A stretch of 45,751 bases of DNA from Bacteroidia bacterium (lineage in GTDB: Bacteria > Bacteroidota > Bacteroidia > Bacteroidales > Prolixibacteraceae): positions 1 to 45,751 of the forward strand of contig JAPLDS010000024.1 of the NCBI GenBank assembly GCA_026391295.1. The letters are read 5' to 3'. The stretch's first letter is position 1. Each line of letters opens with the position of its first letter. The notes below the pieces were generated by a model. The model had not been told where the DNA came from, did no database searches, and saw only the letters and a list, made by a program, of their open reading frames with translations. Positions 5,749 to 44,653 of the stretch are shown here, piece after piece. The translations under genes were made by a program, and so were the position numbers.

Positions 5749-6543
5749 CTACTTCGGCGGCAAGTATGTATGTGAAGGTCCAGTGCCAGAAAGTATTGGA
5801 TTCTGGTATCTTTTAGGATCTTTTAGATTATCTATATTATCTGAGAATGTTTTTCGAACCATAAATTCGACCATTCCACCCACTCGTTTCGTTAAATTAA
5901 ATTTTATTCCTGCCCCAACAGGAATAGTCGCTGTTAAAACATCTAAACTATTTGTCTTTTTGCCTTTGTCATCGACATAAGGAGAATAAAGACTAAGAAG
6001 GGGACCTCCAGGAGCTGCAGGAAATGTAGGATCATAATCTAAAATAAACGAGTTACTTAAGGGAGCTCTAGAATATAGAACCCCTAAACCTAGCGACATA
6101 AATGGTGTAAACCATTCTTTCTTCATACTTCCAATCTTATAGTTTCGGAAATTAAATTCAAATACGCCTTCAACGGTTTGAACAGTACGACTAAATTTAT
6201 ACGCAAAATTCGGATCCGCTTGATAAGTAGGTGGCGCAGTCGTTGGAATAAACGTTGGAAGATTGATCAAACTATTTGAAAACAAACCTTCAGCTTGAAT
6301 AGTACCAGTAAGAATCTGTCCTCGAAGGGCTAGACGTTTATTGAAATTCAAGCGGCCAAAAACTCCATAAAGCAACGTAGCTGATTTGGTATAATCTACC
6401 TTTTCCATATCACCCCAATAAGCGGTTACAGCAACCTCTGCTCCAATATCTGCCGTACGCTGTGCATAAACACAACCACTTGAAAATATAAGCATTACAA
6501 TCACTATAAACTTTCTCATCTTCAAATTATGCAATGATTTCAT
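5749..6543 (-). CDS. DUF6089-family outer-membrane beta-barrel protein
   Basis: A 264-residue protein with a signal peptide and a mature start (RTADIGAEVAVTAYWGDM) typical of the DUF6089 family found immediately upstream of uppS and bamA in many Bacteroidota. Alternating hydrophobic and aromatic residues, and segments such as RLALRGQILTGTIQAEG and GVFEFNFRNYKIG, suggest a small membrane barrel. Its function is not known; the constant company of bamA suggests a role in, or dependence on, outer-membrane biogenesis. The first ATG (6541-6543) gives a long n-region; a second ATG at 6517-6519 (MRKFIVIVMLIFSSGCVYAQ) would give a more standard signal peptide and may be the real start. The family call is from recall of the N-terminal pattern and the gene order. 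Confidence 0.82.
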   Translation of the reverse strand: MKSLHNLKMRKFIVIVMLIFSSGCVYAQRTADIGAEVAVTAYWGDMEKVDYTKSATLLYGVFGRLNFNKRLALRGQILTGTIQAEGLFSNSLINLPTFIPTTAPPTYQADPNFAYKFSRTVQTVEGVFEFNFRNYKIGSMKKEWFTPFMSLGLGVLYSRAPLSNSFILDYDPTFPAAPGGPLLSLYSPYVDDKGKKTNSLDVLTATIPVGAGIKFNLTKRVGGMVEFMVRKTFSDNIDNLKDPKRYQNPILSGTGPSHTYLPPK

Positions 6544-8306: not shown

Positions 8307-9023
8307 ATGGCTCGATTAAGCGTAAATATAAATAAAATTGCGACACTGCGGAATACCAGAGATGGAAATATACCCAATGTTTTATTAGCTGCAGTAAATT
8401 GCGAGCGATTTGGGGCTCAGGGAATCACTGTGCATCCGCGCCCTGACGAAAGACATATCCGTTATGCTGACGTAAGAAGCTTAAAACCAATCATAACAAC
8501 AGAATTCAACATTGAAGGATTTCCCAATCGTTCATTCTTAGATTTAGTCTTAGAAGTAAAAGCAGACCAGGTAACATTAGTCCCAGATGCCGACGATGCC
8601 ATTACCTCAAATGCTGGTTGGGATACCATAAAGCATAAAAATTTACTAACGGATATCGTTGCCGAGTTGAAAGATGCTGGGATAAGAGTATCACTGTTTG
8701 TTGGTGCAGACGAAAAGATGGTTGAAGGAGCAGCTATTATTGGAGCAGACCGAATCGAACTCTATACTGAGCCTTATGCTTCCAACTATACACTAAATCG
8801 TGATGACGCTATAAAACCTTTTATGCACGCCGCGATTGCAGCTAAGGATTTTAATCTTGGAGTCAATGCAGGTCACGATTTAAACCTGGACAACCTACAA
8901 TTCTTCAACGAGTCGATCCCCAATTTATTAGAAGTCTCAATTGGTCACGCCTTAATTGCGGATGCCCTATACCTGGGTCTGGAGCAAACCATACTCAAAT
9001 ACAAAGCTTGCCTAGGCGAATGA
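8307..9023 (+). CDS. pdxJ: Pyridoxine 5'-phosphate synthase
   Basis: A 238-residue TIM-barrel enzyme that condenses 3-amino-2-oxopropyl phosphate with 1-deoxy-D-xylulose 5-phosphate to make pyridoxine 5'-phosphate, the last ring-forming step of the DXP-dependent vitamin B6 route. The start MARLSVNINKIATLRNTRDG and the segment GITVHPRPDERHIRYADV are family hallmarks, as are VTLVPDADDAITSNAGWD and the C-terminal EVSIGHALIADALYLGLE phosphate site. Length is normal. It is divergent from the CBS-nadK genes with about 70 bases between the chosen starts, and its TGA overlaps the ATG of the next gene (ATGA), so it is translationally coupled to the hydrolase. Confidence 0.97.
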   Translation: MARLSVNINKIATLRNTRDGNIPNVLLAAVNCERFGAQGITVHPRPDERHIRYADVRSLKPIITTEFNIEGFPNRSFLDLVLEVKADQVTLVPDADDAITSNAGWDTIKHKNLLTDIVAELKDAGIRVSLFVGADEKMVEGAAIIGADRIELYTEPYASNYTLNRDDAIKPFMHAAIAAKDFNLGVNAGHDLNLDNLQFFNESIPNLLEVSIGHALIADALYLGLEQTILKYKACLGE

Positions 9024-11314: not shown

Positions 11315-11735
11315 CACATTAGGCACATAGGCCACATTAGAAAGCACACTAAAATTTATTGTGTCTATTGTGTTTCTTTTTTTTCTTTTTACCACATAGG
11401 CACATAGGCCACATTAGAAGGCACACTAAAATCTATTGTGTCTATTGTGTTTCTTTTTTTTCTTTTTACCACATAGGCACATAGGCCACATTAGAATCTA
11501 TTGTGTCTATTGTGTTTCTCTTTTTTTCACCACATTAGGCACATAGGCCACATCAGAAGGCACATTAGACTCTAGTGTGTCTATTGTGTTTTTCCTACTG
11601 TGTTCTATAGTGTTTCTCTTTTTTCTTTTCACCACATTAGGCACATAGGCCACATTAGAATCTATTGTGTCTATTGTGTTTCTCTTTTTTCTTTTTTTCA
11701 CATAGGCACATAGAGCACATGAGAAGGTACATCAA
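11315..11735. repeat. Array of six imperfect interspersed repeats between the S9 peptidase gene and malQ
   Basis: Six copies start at about 11315, 11393, 11470, 11531, 11633 and 11699, with spacings of 78, 77, 61, 102 and 66 bases. Each opens with a variant of CACATAGGCACATAGGCCAC followed by ATTAGAA, most then have TCTATTGTGTCTATTGTG and end in a T-rich tract. The opening block and the TATTGTG block are imperfect inverted complements (CACATTAGA against TCTATTGTG with one mismatch), so each copy can fold as a hairpin. The last copy is partial. This fills the whole 445-base gene-free gap at 11294-11738. It resembles the short GTG/CAC-rich intergenic repeats found in many Bacteroidota; no mobile gene or direct-repeat-and-spacer CRISPR layout is present. 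Confidence 0.85.
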
Positions 11736-32605: not shown

Positions 32606-33988
32606 CTATTCAGCGTCGCTATATGCTGTTTCATGGTGTTGTGTAATATCCAATCCAGCATCTTCTTCTTCTTCAGTAGCACGAATACCTAAAGTCTTCT
32701 CAACCACTTTAAATAAAATGATTGTCATAATGCCTGAATAAATAACTGTAGCAGCGATTGCCATTAATTGAATACCCAACTGTTTTGAGTTACCATAGAA
32801 AGTTCCAGAGTAAGCAGATTGGATTAACGGAGAAGCAAATAGACCTGTTGCAATTGCGCCCCAGATACCACCGATTCCATGTACTCCAAAAGCATCTAAT
32901 GAATCATCGTAACCAAACTTAACTTTAACAACGCTGACCATAAAGAAGCAGAATACAGAAACCAATAGACCTATTACTAAAGCACCTGTTACATCTACGA
33001 ATCCAGCAGCAGGGGTGATCGCTACAAGTCCAGCAACAGCGCCAGTTGCGATACCCACAACGGTAGGTTTTTTATTGATAAACCAATCTAGCAAGGCCCA
33101 TGATAGCGCAGCAGCTGCAGCAGCCACATGAGTCGTTAGGAATGCACTAGCAGCAAGACCATCCGCAGCCAAACCGCTTCCAGCATTGAAACCAAACCAT
33201 CCGAACCATAGTAAGGCAGCACCAATAACAACTAACGGAATATTATGCGGAGCAGTAATATGCTGACCATTTGGCAAGCGACGTTTTCCTAACATAACAG
33301 CGGTAACTAAGGCAGCTATACCTGCATTGATGTGGACTACAGTACCACCAGCAAAGTCAAGTGCGCCTAATTTAAATAACCAGCCGTCAGCTGACCATAC
33401 CCAGTGAGCAACTGGATTGTATACTACAATTGCCCAAAGTAAAGAGAATACTAAGAATCCGCGGAATTTCATACGCTCAGCAAACGCACCAATGATCAAG
33501 GCAGGTGTGATTACCGCAAACATACACTGAAATAAAACAAATACTAAGTGAGGGATTCGTTCTGTTTCTTGAGAGATAAAGTATGGACTAACATCACTAA
33601 TTCCAATACCTTTCAGGAAGGCCCAATCAAATCCACCAATATAAGGAGCCAAAGCGCCTGTTGATGAACCGAAAGCATTACTATAACCAAAAACAATCCA
33701 CTCTAATGTGATAACTGCAGTTAAGATAAAACACTGCATTAAAACGTTTAGAATATTCTTGCTTCTAACTAGACCGCCATAAAACAAGGCTAATCCAGGA
33801 ATAGTCATTAACATTACAAGTGCGGTTGCAACAAGCATCCAAGCAGTATTTCCGGCACTAATAAAAGGGACAGGCTTAACTGCTACTGGAGCCGCTGCTG
33901 CTGCAGCTGCTTGAGCAAAGGAAAGAACTGGCAAAAGCGCTGATAACCCTAGGGGTAAACCGATATATTTTATAAATTTATTTATCAT
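32606..33988 (-). CDS. amtB: Ammonium transporter
   Basis: A 460-residue Amt protein that conducts ammonium across the inner membrane. It has a cleavable signal peptide (MINKFIKYIGLPLGLSALLP...SFAQ) followed by an Ala-rich linker, then eleven transmembrane segments. Family landmarks are MTIPGLALFYGGLVRSKN, the pore segments with the twin His (DFAGGTVVHINAGIAALV and FGVHGIGGIWGAIATGLF) and ALLWFGWFGFNAGSGL. The C-terminal tail (about residues 425-460, LGIRATEEEEDAGLDITQHH) is the usual regulatory helix region but ends acidic. The gene is last in the operon outer-membrane protein - P-II - amtB, 23 bases after the P-II stop, so it should be controlled by that P-II protein. Confidence 0.97.
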   Translation of the reverse strand: MINKFIKYIGLPLGLSALLPVLSFAQAAAAAAAPVAVKPVPFISAGNTAWMLVATALVMLMTIPGLALFYGGLVRSKNILNVLMQCFILTAVITLEWIVFGYSNAFGSSTGALAPYIGGFDWAFLKGIGISDVSPYFISQETERIPHLVFVLFQCMFAVITPALIIGAFAERMKFRGFLVFSLLWAIVVYNPVAHWVWSADGWLFKLGALDFAGGTVVHINAGIAALVTAVMLGKRRLPNGQHITAPHNIPLVVIGAALLWFGWFGFNAGSGLAADGLAASAFLTTHVAAAAAALSWALLDWFINKKPTVVGIATGAVAGLVAITPAAGFVDVTGALVIGLLVSVFCFFMVSVVKVKFGYDDSLDAFGVHGIGGIWGAIATGLFASPLIQSAYSGTFYGNSKQLGIQLMAIAATVIYSGIMTIILFKVVEKTLGIRATEEEEDAGLDITQHHETAYSDAE

Positions 33989-34011: not shown

Positions 34012-34359
34012 TTATTTTTTATCGTATAGAGCCTCATCACCTTGATCACCAGTACGAATACGTATTGACTGATCGATTTGAGTAACAAAGATGCGACCAT
34101 CGCCTGATTCTCCAGTATACGCAGATTTCAGGATTGCATTGATTGACTTTTCAACGTTAATATCTCGCACAACGAAAGAGATATAAACTCGATCAATAGT
34201 GTTCACATCATAAGCCACACCACGAAATATAAGTCCTTGTTTAGCTGATCCCTGACCCTTTACTTCCCACCAAGAAAGAAAGTCTATATCAGCTTCATGC
34301 AAAGCTTTTCTTACAACTTCAAATTTTGATTTACGAACAATAGCTTCAACTTTTTTCAT
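34012..34359 (-). CDS. glnK: P-II nitrogen regulatory protein
   Basis: A 115-residue signal protein that binds ATP/ADP and 2-oxoglutarate and plugs AmtB when nitrogen is plentiful. The start MKKVEAIVRKSKFEVVRKAL, the B-loop TGESGDGRIFV and the C-loop IRIRTGDQGDEAL are canonical. The T-loop (residues 35-52, GQGSAKQGLIFRGVAYDV) is one residue shorter than in E. coli GlnB and lacks the GHTE segment, yet it keeps Arg46 and Tyr50, which align with the pore-plugging Arg47 and the modified Tyr51. It lies 26 bases from the outer-membrane protein gene and 23 bases from amtB. Whether the Tyr is uridylylated cannot be told; no GlnD is in the window. The glnK name is from the link with amtB. Confidence 0.94.
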   Translation of the reverse strand: MKKVEAIVRKSKFEVVRKALHEADIDFLSWWEVKGQGSAKQGLIFRGVAYDVNTIDRVYISFVVRDINVEKSINAILKSAYTGESGDGRIFVTQIDQSIRIRTGDQGDEALYDKK

Positions 34360-38764: not shown

Positions 38765-41700
38765 ATGGAATCAAATAGTTTCCCGAAAGCCCAAGGGCTG
38801 TATGACCCTAAAAATGAACATGATGCCTGCGGAATAGGCTTCGTAGCACACATTAAAGGTCATAAATCGCACGACATTATCGAACGAGGACTTACCGTAT
38901 TAGTAAATATGGACCATCGTGGGGCCACAAGTTCAGATAACAAGACTGGTGACGGTGCAGGAATTTTAATGCAACTTCCGCACGACTTCTATCTCTCCTT
39001 AAAGATTGCGGTTCCAGAGGCTGGGAAATATGGTACCGGACTTGTGTTTCTTCCAGAAGATAAGAAGGAAGCGGATCATTGCGCTGAGATTTTAAATAAA
39101 TTCGTAGCAGCTGAAGGCCTTCAGTTAATCTCTTGGCGTGATGTGCCTGTTGACAGCAGTGTGATTGGAGAAATAGCAAAACGATCAGAACCATTAATTC
39201 GTCAGATATTTGTTAAAGGAGATTACGAACAAGATATTCTTGAGCGCAAACTCTTCTTAGCAAGAAAACAAGCTGAGCGAAGTATAAGAGAATCAAATCT
39301 CACTCAAAAAGATGCTTTTTGTCTTCCTAGTTTTTCTAGCAAGACATTGATATACAAAGGGATGTTTACGCCAGATCAATTAAGAGACTATTTCAAAGAT
39401 CTCACCAATCCGGCTATGACAAGTGCGATTGCATTGGTCCATTCTCGTTTTAGCACGAATACATTTCCAACTTGGAGTCTGGCACAACCGTTTAGAATGA
39501 TCGCGCACAATGGTGAGATTAATACCATTAAGGGGAATCGTCAATGGATGCATGCTAGAGAGTCGCTTCTTGAAAGTGATCTTTTTGGAAGTGAAATTGA
39601 AAAAATATTTCCAATTATTGAACCAGGAAAATCTGATTCTGCCTCATTTGACAATACGCTAGAGTTCCTTCACTTAGCGGGCCGGAGCATGCCTCACTCG
39701 ATTTGCATGATGATTCCAGAGTCATTTAACGAGAAGAATCCAATTCCTGAGGATTTGAAAGCTTTCTACGAGTATCATTCAACAATTATGGAACCTTGGG
39801 ATGGTCCAGCTTCTATGGTATTCTCTGATGGAAGGTACATCGGTGGAACATTGGATAGAAGTGGATTACGTCCATCTCGCTATGTGATTACCAAAAACGA
39901 TTTGATCGTAATGGGATCAGAAGTTGGGGTTCAAGTATTCAAAGCGGACGAGATTAAAGAGAAGGGGCGTCTAAGACCAGGAAAACTGCTTCTAGTTGAT
40001 ACTGAGCGAGGAATTATTATTCCAGACCAAGAAGTCAAAGCTGAGTTAAGCCAACGAAATCCTTATGGTGATTGGCTTAAAGAGAACAGATTAGAGCTTG
40101 AGAAAATTTCTGTACGACAACGAGTATCATCAAACATAGGTGATCTTTTTGGCCCATACTCAAAGGTATTTGGATATAGCAAAGAGGAGATGATGATTGT
40201 CATCAAAGAGATGGCTGAAACGGCTCAAGAACCTACAAGTTCGATGGGTAATGATACTCCACTTGCCGTTTTATCTGATAAACCAAAACGTTTCTTTAGC
40301 TATTTCAGACAACTTTTTGCGCAGGTTACCAATCCTCCTATTGATCCAATCAGAGAAGGCTTGGTGATGTCGTTAACTCATTACATTGGCTCCGTAAGTA
40401 GCAACATCTTAGAGGAGACACCAAACCATTGTAGCCTAATAAAATTTGATAGTCCAATCATCACCAATACTGATCTTGGCAAGATAAAAGATCTAAAACA
40501 CGAATCGTTTACCCATGCGATTATCCCTATGCTATTCCCAGTTAATGGTGGAGCGGCAGGATTTAAAAAGGCTTTTGATGCTATGTTAGTAGAGGCTGAA
40601 AAAGCAGTAGACGAAAATAAAAACTTCATCATTCTGAGCGACCGCAATGTAGATGAAAATATGGCTCCAATACCATCATTATTATCGGTAGCGGCAGTGC
40701 ATCATCATCTTATTAAGAGTAAGAAAAGAATGCAGATTGGAATTATTGTCGAGAGTGCAGAACCACGAGAAATCATGCATTTTGCATTATTATTTGGTTA
40801 TGGCGCAAGCGTTGTCAATCCATATCTCGCCTTTGCTGCTATTGATTATTTAGTAAATGAAGAGGAAATTAAGTTACCATATGCTGAGGCTCGGAAAAAC
40901 TACATTAAATCGATTGACAAGGGATTGCTAAAAGTGATCTCGAAGATGGGTATCTCTACTTTACAATCTTACCATGGAGCAGAGCTATTTGAGGCAGTCG
41001 GAGTTAGTGATGAACTTATTGATAATTACTTTAAAGGAACACCTTCGCGTATTGGTGGGGTAAGCTACGAAGAGATCTTTAAAGAAGCGATGATCTTCCA
41101 CGATGACGCCTATAAAAATCCAACAAAAAAAGTTTCATTTTCAACGGTTGGAGAATATCACTATAGAAATCAAGGTGAGTTTCATGCTTGGAATCCTCAA
41201 AGTGTTGGATTACTGCAATGGGCGACTAAGTCTGATGATTATCAGACCTATAAAAAATTCAGTAAACTAGTTGATGATCAAAATGCACAGCCTGCATTTA
41301 TTCGTGGCATCTTAAAATGGAAGCACAATCCAATTCCAATTGAGGAAGTTGAGCCAGCTGAAAACATCATGAAACGGTTTGTAACCGGGGCTATGTCATA
41401 CGGATCAATTTCAAAAGAGGCTCACGAGGCTATTGCTGTGGCAATGAATATCATTGGTGGTCGTAGCAATACGGGTGAAGGTGGAGAAGATGCAGGTCGA
41501 TTCGGAACAGATCGAAATTCAAAAATCAAGCAGATTGCATCGGGTCGTTTTGGAGTTACCAATAACTACCTGATCAATGCACAAGAACTTCAGATAAAGA
41601 TTGCTCAAGGGGCTAAACCAGGAGAAGGAGGTCAGTTACCTGGCTTCAAAATCAATAAAATCATTGCTAAATTAAGGCATTCTACGCCAGGAATTACCTT

Positions 41701-43187
41701 GATATCTCCACCGCCTCATCATGATATTTATTCTATTGAGGATTTAGCCCAGCTTATTTTCGACTTAAAGAATGTAAATCCAGATGCTAAAGTCTCAGTT
41801 AAACTTGTGGCAGAATCGGGGGTTGGAACTATTGCAGCCGGTGTAGCGAAAGGGTTCTCAGATATTATAATTGTAAGTGGATGCGAAGGAGGTACTGGCG
41901 CATCACCTGCTAGTTCGATCAAACACGCTGGGTTACCGGCTGAATTTGGAATTGCGGAAACACAGCAGACCTTAGTCATGAATAATCTCCGTGGCCGTGT
42001 TAAACTCCAAGTAGACGGACAATTAAAAACAGGTCGTGATGTGGTAATCATGGGGATGTTAGGAGCCGAAGAATTTGGTTTTGCAACTGGAGCTTTGATC
42101 TCACTTGGATGTATCATGATGCGCAAATGCCATCTTAATACCTGTCCAGCAGGTATTGCAACTCAAAATAAAGAACTAAGAAAACGTTTCTTGGGTAGAT
42201 CACAATTTGTGATTAACTATTTCACGTTTATCTCTCAGGAGATTCGTGAATACATGGCTGAGATTGGGGTTAGAAACTTTGATGATTTAGTTGGTCGTGT
42301 TGATCTGCTTGAGCAAAATCATGAAGTTACCAATTGGAAGATGAAAAATGTAGATTTGTCTAAGTTCTTAAATCTGCCAAAAGAAGCTAAGCTCTATCCG
42401 ATCCGTAACACGCATCCAAATACGAAAAATTTAGATGATGTAATTGACAAGACTTTAATTAAAGAGGCCAATAAAGCGATTAAAAGCGGTGAAAAAGTTT
42501 GGTTATCACATAGCATTCACAATGCAATGCGTACTGTTGGAGCTATGTTGTCTGGTCAAATCTCAAAAAGATATGGTGAAGAAGGGTTACCGAAAGACAC
42601 CATCAACTGCACCTTTACTGGAACAGCAGGTCAAAGTTTTGGCGCATTCTTAGTGAAGGGGGTATCCTTTAAACTGGAAGGTGATTCAAACGATTACCTT
42701 GGAAAGGGTCTTTCGCGGTGAAGTATATATCCAAGGAGTAGCCGGCGAACGCTTCTGCGTAAGGAACTCGGGTGCTAAAGCTGTGGTTGAAGGATCAGGT
42801 GATCACTGTTGTGAATACATGACAGGTGGCCGCACGGTTGTTTTAGGCACAACAGGTCGCAACTTTGCGGCTGGAATGAGTGGAGGTATTGCATATGTCC
42901 TTGATGAAGTAGGTGATTTTGAATACTACTGTAACACAGGACTAGTAGAACTCGGTCCGGTTGAAGACAAAGCAGATATTTCTGAATTACAAGAATTAAT
43001 TGGGAAACATCTTTTATATACCCAAAGTCCATTAGCGAATAAGCTATTAACTAACTGGGAAGAATTCCTTCCTAAGTTCGTTAAAGTTATTCCATTAGAA
43101 TACAAAAAAGTGTTAAACGAAATGAAGTTAAAAGAGGTAAAACGTAAGTTAGAGCTAGCGGAAGATGCTCCTGATAGAAGAGAGTAG
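38765..43187 (+). pseudogene. gltB: Glutamate synthase large subunit, broken by an internal loss and frameshift
   Basis: GltB makes glutamate from 2-oxoglutarate and glutamine-derived ammonia. Frame one (38765-42721, 1318 codons) has the glutaminase with Cys22 in HDACGIGF, the central domain, the FMN domain (EGGEDAGRFGTD, KPGEGGQLPGFK) and the iron-sulfur segment RKCHLNTCPAG. It breaks off after [11 protein letters not shown] with a TGA at 42719-42721. Homology resumes at about 42715 in the +1 frame as [20 protein letters not shown] and runs to the true end at 43187. Normal GltB has about 31-32 more residues between these points (in E. coli a GGLIAIRPP...CLYGATG stretch). So about 90-100 bases, two more than a multiple of three, are missing from the GXGXG beta-helix domain. 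The product should be truncated and inactive unless this is an assembly error. Confidence 0.9.
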
Positions 43188-43237: not shown

Positions 43238-44653
43238 ATGGGAAATGCAAAAGGTTTTATCGAAATAGAGCGCAAAGAAGGCGGATATCGGCCAATAAAT
43301 GAGCGCATCTTTGACTATGGTGAAGTGGAGCAAACACTCAACGAGAATGATCGTAAAGATCAAGCATCCCGTTGTATGGACTGTGGCATACCTTTTTGCC
43401 ATAGCTCATGTCCAGTAGAAAGTAATATTCCAGAGTGGCAAGATGCTGTTTATCGTGGGAAATGGGATGAGGCATACGATTTACTTCATGCAACCAATAG
43501 TTTTCCTGAGTTTACAGGTCGCGTTTGTCCAGCGCCATGCGAGAAATCATGCGTGCTAGCAATTCACGATGAAGCGGTTACTATTCGTGAGAACGAATGT
43601 TCTATCGTTGAGAAAGCATTTGATCTAGGTCATGTTGTAGAAGAGATTCCAACACACCGGACTGGAAAGAAAATTGCGATTATTGGCTCTGGACCTGCAG
43701 GTCTTTCTACCGCAGATTTATTGAACAAAGATGGTCATTCAGTGACAGTTTTCGAACAAGATGATAAAGTGGGTGGACTATTACGTTATGGTATACCAGA
43801 CTTCAAGTTAAGCAAAACAGTGATTGATCGAAGAATCAATCTTTTTGAGAAAGAGGGGATCACGTTTAAAGTTAATACCAAAGTTGGTGTAGATATATCA
43901 GCTGATACAATACTAAAAGACTTTGATGCCGTATGTCTAGCCTGTGGTGCGATGGAACCACGTGATCTACCTGCTGAAGGTCGTGAATTAAATGGCATTC
44001 ATTTCGCCATGGAGTTCCTTCGTCAACAAAACAAGGTTGTAAGTGGAGAAGAGATTCCTGAGAATGAAAGATTATCAGCTAAAGACAAAAAAATATTAGT
44101 TATTGGGGGTGGAGACACCGGTTCCGATTGTGTTGGAACATCGATTCGTCAAAAAGCAACTTCGGTGACGCAGATTGAAATATTATCTAAACCAGCAACA
44201 AAGCGAAATGACGACAACCCTTGGCCATATTGGCCTACAACACTAAGAACCTCAAGTTCACATCTTGAAGGCTGCGAAAGAAGATGGAATTTAGCCACAA
44301 AACGCTTCGTAGGCAAAAATGGTTTACTAACAGGTGTAGAAGTGATAACTGTTGAATGGGTCAAAGAAAATGGCCGTATGGTCATGAAAGAGGTCCCTGG
44401 AACACTTGAACTTATCGAAGCTGATTTAGTTTTATTATCTATGGGATTTTTGGCACCAATACATCAAGGATTACTTGATAGCTTAGGGGTAGAGTATGAT
44501 GAAAGAGGAAATGTTAAATCATACAACAATGCAACTAATTTAGATAAGGTATTTGTTGGAGGCGATGCTACTCGTGGAGCTAGTCTTGTTGTTTGGGCGA
44601 TTCGCTCGGGCCGCGATGCTGCCAAAAGAATTCATAAATATGTGATGGGATAA
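43238..44653 (+). CDS. gltD: Glutamate synthase small subunit
   Basis: A 471-residue flavoprotein that passes electrons from NADPH to the large subunit. Iron-sulfur cysteines are in the N-terminal part: RCMDCGIPFCHSSCPV with Cys46, Cys49, Cys54 and Cys58, and RVCPAPCEKSC with Cys97, Cys101 and Cys105. The FAD site is IIGSGPAGLSTADLL (about residues 148-162), and the NADPH site is VIGGGDTGSDC (about 289-299). The end carries VFVGGDATRGASLVVWAIRSGRDAA, seen in pieces as FVGGDATRGASLVVWAI and SGRDAAKRI. Length is normal and nothing is broken. It starts 50 bases after the gltB end and is ended by the terminator at 44673-44707. Intact gltD beside broken gltB is noteworthy. Confidence 0.97.
   Translation: MGNAKGFIEIERKEGGYRPINERIFDYGEVEQTLNENDRKDQASRCMDCGIPFCHSSCPVESNIPEWQDAVYRGKWDEAYDLLHATNSFPEFTGRVCPAPCEKSCVLAIHDEAVTIRENECSIVEKAFDLGHVVEEIPTHRTGKKIAIIGSGPAGLSTADLLNKDGHSVTVFEQDDKVGGLLRYGIPDFKLSKTVIDRRINLFEKEGITFKVNTKVGVDISADTILKDFDAVCLACGAMEPRDLPAEGRELNGIHFAMEFLRQQNKVVSGEEIPENERLSAKDKKILVIGGGDTGSDCVGTSIRQKATSVTQIEILSKPATKRNDDNPWPYWPTTLRTSSSHLEGCERRWNLATKRFVGKNGLLTGVEVITVEWVKENGRMVMKEVPGTLELIEADLVLLSMGFLAPIHQGLLDSLGVEYDERGNVKSYNNATNLDKVFVGGDATRGASLVVWAIRSGRDAAKRIHKYVMG

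Follow-up and report, generated by a model that had tools for sequence, protein, structure and literature searches.

The gltB gene of the genome under study (G000) breaks off inside the GXGXG beta-helix domain and continues in another reading frame, which raises the question of whether the organism has lost the GOGAT large subunit or whether a piece of the gene was lost from the draft sequence. The locus lies in the window, i.e., the whole stretch of 45,751 nucleotides that was analyzed, which corresponds to bases 1–45751 of the scaffold C35 (93,469 bases) in an assembly of 2.93 Mb in 81 pieces that is 97.5% complete and 1.6% contaminated. As set out below, the gap is real as sequence, and the loss of GOGAT by the organism probably is not; from sequence comparison, the missing bases are best explained by a local assembly fault, i.e., a mis-join in the draft scaffold, a reading to which a probability of about 0.84 can be given.

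Structure of the gltB Locus

The nearest intact relative found, the genome G006 (contig CAIUAN010000038.1), shares about 90% DNA identity with G000 at gltB. The genes discussed and the join within gltB are the following (window coordinates):

32606..33988, minus strand: ammonium transporter; TIGR00836 above cut-off; full length relative to G006
34012..34359, minus strand: P-II family nitrogen regulator; best models NF007946 and NF008111, both below their curated cut-offs; full length relative to G006
38765..42721, plus strand: gltB, first reading frame; 1318 aa, then TGA; domains GATase_2, Glu_syn_central, and Glu_synthase plus the initial third of the GXGXG beta-helix domain
42714..42717, plus strand: join in gltB; 95 bases of the nearest relative absent, with no shared bases at the join as judged by the G006 sequence
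42717..43187, plus strand: rest of gltB in the +1 frame, 156 codons and stop; C-terminus and roughly the latter half of the GXGXG domain
43238..44653, plus strand: gltD, intact, 471 aa; TIGR01317 above cut-off; 97.5% identity to G006

The first frame of gltB starts at 38765 and runs for 1318 codons to 42718, with a TGA ending at 42721, so that its product would terminate in ...DYLGKGLSR. The remainder is read in the +1 frame from 42717, which is open up to the stop at 43187; a 168-aa ORF of this frame, starting with GTG, overlaps the first frame. Pairwise comparison with G006 shows that exactly 95 bases are missing after position 42714, and the alignment of the G000 gene with ten rows from nine same-genus genomes (two rows, L004 and L036, being identical in sequence) displays a single 95-base gap at the join, which occurs in none of the nine. 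The preliminary description had proposed a loss of about 95 bases with a frameshift in the beta-helix domain beside an intact gltD, and had deduced a length of the form 3n+2, such as 92 or 95; all of this is borne out by the comparison, including the full length of gltD. The ammonium transporter and P-II genes lie 4–6 kb upstream of gltB on the opposite strand.

At the level of domains, PF00310, PF04898, and PF01645 (the amidotransferase, central, and synthase domains) are matched almost end to end, whereas the GXGXG domain (PF01493) is matched only at positions 2–69 and 100–188 of 190, the absent part being positions 70–99 or thereabouts. Instead of one intact frame of ~1500 aa, the full-length model NF008730 is matched in two pieces (profile positions 3–1307 and 1340–1474 of 1490), and whichever way the gene is read, the GXGXG domain is short of about 32 residues.

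Several accounts of the join can be set aside. A second gltB in G000 is rejected, as PF01493 matches only the two gltB parts and the one further match of PF01645, at C81, is weak and falls in an ORF that, read by eye, looks like a nitronate monooxygenase-like FMN protein. The lost piece does not lie elsewhere in the assembly either: a 121-base probe across it has no match in G000, while it is positive in G006 (100%), G004 (79%), G010 (77%), and G005 (75%) and also misses G016, where gltB sits on contig ends. Repeat-mediated deletion or k-mer collapse is rejected since the join has no shared bases, judged by the G006 sequence rather than by that of G000 itself, and a strain chimera is rejected since the identity to G006 runs without a jump between 86.9 and 93.5% over 2 kb (200-base bins).

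Elsewhere in the window, positions 11315–11591 hold a repeat array with units of about 77 bases in 3.8 copies; similar sequence adjoins the N run at C35:84816 and recurs at two sites in G006, and the array may be a member of a dispersed repeat family.

Conservation of gltB in Related Genomes

A gltB match was obtained in 48 of the 61 genomes searched, G000 included. In 40 of the 47 matched relatives, one stop-free open frame of at least 1503 aa contains the query up to residue 1317, starting at residue 10 or before, and in the other seven (G001, G016, G021, G022, G032, G035, and G042) the gene is partial or split. Within the genus, gltB is intact in 13 of the 17 other genomes and was not found in G002 and G003, which are 82% and 68% complete, respectively. 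The gene of G016 falls on two contig ends, and that of G001 (locus L155, G001 C88:18000-32000) has an in-frame loss of about 78 bases near 6012 and a 47-base N run at 8697–8743; the PF00208 match of G001 is also split over two frames. The relatives had at first been taken for sphingobacteria, which is wrong: the record titles among the matches listed place them in the Prolixibacteraceae (Marinilabiliales, Bacteroidia). A functional GltB with the same shorter domain in one frame, which would have spoken against damage, was not seen among the nine genomes aligned.

In G006, gltB is a single frame of 1506 aa, to which the first part of the G000 gene (its first 1317 residues) has 98.7% amino acid identity, and the second part differs at 3 of 156 residues. 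Relative to G006, omega (dN/dS) is 0.019 in the 5′ part of the gene and 0.016 in the 3′ part. The two genes differ at 20 amino acids; when these are polarized with 12 further genus members, the derived state lies in G000 at 2 and in G006 at 7, the other 11 being ambiguous. The relaxed selection and further lesions of a decaying pseudogene are thus not seen, omega being low, only 2 of 20 differences being derived in G000 and both parts being otherwise open. It has to be noted that a very young pseudogene would show neither of these yet; if the loss of gltB is real, it is very young.

Further Losses in the Same Assembly

The comparison with G006 was extended to a sample consisting of the whole of C35 and C11 (184 kb, of which 163 kb aligned) and a 12-kb end of C40, set against stretches of two G006 contigs. 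The G006 ORFs counted were those of at least 100 aa whose best match had at least 60% identity (128 of 196; the other 68, without an ortholog in the sample, were not counted), and such a comparison of ORF coverage is blind, in either direction, to minor in-frame changes and to losses close to the ends of an ORF. A single G000 piece covered at least 93% of 119 of these 128 ORFs. Of the nine exceptions, two lie at scaffold ends, one is due to an N run, and two reflect divergence or the choice of start; the other four are internal losses:

C35, after window position 42714: gltB, 95 bases
C11:49677 (locus L156, about position 1678): fabF, 168 bases, in frame
C11:70271: 310-aa protein, 23 bases, shifting the frame; gene whole in G006
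C11:77280: 894-aa protein, 14 bases, shifting the frame; gene whole in G006

None of the four has shared bases at its join, as judged by G006, and the other three show, in 200-base bins, no abrupt jump in identity to G006, although the identity slopes down to 83.5% after the fabF join. The 310-aa protein, by eye, looks like a glucosamine-6-phosphate deaminase relative. In the reverse direction, 126 of the 129 counted G000 ORFs (of 147) are full in G006, and no comparable internal loss in G006 was seen over the compared stretch. The three reverse exceptions are fabF itself, an N-terminally divergent ORF, and the ORF at C35:7568-8377; the initial 28 residues of the last one correspond to G006 sequence in a different frame, ahead of the 223-aa ORF there, and are read as a non-coding extension rather than a loss in G006.

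The alignment of G000 with G006 contains eight coding indels whose length is not a multiple of three, namely, the 23- and 14-base losses and six that form three self-cancelling pairs (C35 5271/5277, C35 30189/30213, and C11 27786/27843), which were not counted as the lengths within each pair add up to a number divisible by three; this list does not include the 95- and 168-base losses, which lie in the gaps separating aligned pieces. Outside the G006 ORFs there are 57 deletions on the G000 side versus 35, an excess that fits assembly faults and real genome shrinkage alike. The N runs in C35 and C11 measure 32 bases (C35:45752-45783, directly past the end of the window), 30 and 40 bases (C35), and 31 bases (C11). 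Two of the four could be measured against G006, with 32 N standing where about 17 bases are expected and 31 N where about 48 are, the other two lying within repeats or lacking a G006 match. The N-run lengths look like estimates, a mark of scaffolding and not of masking.

The loss in fabF is the telling case. The 168 missing bases encode the HGTST segment, which includes the conserved histidine required by KAS II enzymes, and a search of G000 with TIGR03150 finds a single copy, the broken one. Elsewhere in the genus, 16 of 17 genomes yield a copy scoring above the cut-off, which is full length in 15 of them; the exception, G010, yields none and is 64% complete. Judging from other bacteria, fabF should be indispensable to a cell that makes its own fatty acids. 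As a living cell should not lack its sole fabF, this piece was likely lost by the assembly and not by the cell. As the loss is in frame, ORF calling would yield an apparently normal protein of 361 aa that lacks the conserved-histidine segment.

Explanations for the Loss

The loss in gltB is probably an assembly fault because the same assembly contains three more blunt losses, one of them in the sole fabF; similar faults thus occur elsewhere and also in a needed gene, with four internal losses in 184 kb. The N runs of wrong length, the lack of decay in gltB, and the drafts of other genus members that also break in this gene (G016 and G001) likewise favor a fault. In the proposed course of events, two pieces of gltB would have been joined end to end in the draft scaffold with the intervening sequence dropped, and the cell itself would have an intact gene. 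The draft is presumably metagenomic, and a scaffolder or local assembler with errors of such size may have joined the pieces bluntly and discarded what lay between them; candidate steps are a gap estimate of zero or less, collapse among co-occurring relatives, or a chimeric read. Against a fault, there is no N run at the gltB join and no repeat that would explain a k-mer collapse, four losses versus none is a small number, and a genuine blunt deletion that was fixed or frequent in the population would give the same picture at this one locus.

The preliminary description had left the choice between recent damage and an assembly fault, of which the latter is favored by the three further blunt losses, one of them in the sole fabF, and the former is unlikely. 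A real, very recent deletion would make gltB a pseudogene in the strain or in a major part of its population, with ammonium assimilated via the NADP-GDH and glutamine synthetase. This would agree with a gltB that is single copy in G000 and whose lost part has left no trace elsewhere in the assembly, and the low dN/dS fits a very recent event. The enzymes for such a route are encoded as well: both a second gltB and a gdh had been suggested as targets of a search, and while no second gltB was found, an intact NADP-type glutamate dehydrogenase of 445 aa is present at C11:53013 (NF006929 and NF010633 above cut-off), and Gln-synt_C is matched by a gene at C40 and, more weakly, at C28. The route through glutamate dehydrogenase that had been proposed for a strain without the GOGAT large subunit is therefore coherent, but gdh is not tied to the loss of gltB. 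PF00208 is found above the cut-off in 17 of the 18 genomes of the genus, with a strong match in 12 of the 13 same-genus relatives that have an intact gltB, so gdh is no sign of a compensated gltB loss. A deletion in the cell is further opposed by the three similar-looking losses elsewhere in the sample, including that in fabF, and by G006, whose genome is similarly sized (2.8 Mb), whose gltB is intact, and in which the region compared shows no loss of this kind.

It is highly improbable that the split gene still works, through programmed +1 frameshifting or as two assembling polypeptides with a shortened beta-helix; some archaeal GOGATs are built from separate subunits, the GTG-started 168-aa ORF overlaps the first frame, and conserved sequence is kept in both parts, but the residues missing from the GXGXG domain are absent in any reading, the join is found in G000 alone among the genomes aligned, and the query lies within one long frame in 40 of the 47 matched relatives, with a partial or split gene in the remaining seven.

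With a mis-join as the preferred explanation, it is rather unlikely that a single deletion has only just deprived a small-genome Prolixibacteraceae strain of GOGAT and that the strain now depends on GDH while keeping gltD, P-II, and the ammonium transporter. Were this true, the loss of GOGAT would be an early step in the simplification of nitrogen assimilation and would suggest that this lineage can manage with GDH alone; were the other losses also real, the genome would have been caught in a burst of gene breakage. An annotator who took the gap at face value would describe the organism as GOGAT-negative. Before a draft genome is used for such a conclusion, it has to be checked for like losses in indispensable genes, for which fabF serves here.

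Comparison with Known Systems

A literature search on GltB and its beta-helix domain gave no matching paper. Small-scale and structural errors of draft genomes, recognized by read depth and clipped reads, are described in the excerpt available of PMC10582259; there, as in G000, losses of varied size occur beside gaps, but the assemblies in that excerpt are those of human and S. pennellii.

The NADPH-type GltB (NF008730/PRK11750; PF00310, PF04898, PF01645, and PF01493) has the domain order also found in G000, where the gene is likewise a single copy by gltD; unlike it, the G000 gene lacks 95 bases and the frame inside the GXGXG domain. Solved structures related to GltB, matched using the intact G006 protein, include 7mfm and 6s6s. 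In Prevotella ruminicola 23, of the same phylum, glnN-2 adjoins gltBD, whereas none is annotated beside gltBD in G000, and a split gltB is not mentioned in the excerpted text of PMC5552732. According to the same excerpt, P-II and ammonium transporter genes likewise cluster near gltBD in that organism, an NADP-GDH is encoded, and GDH and GS-GOGAT are used together (PMC5552732).
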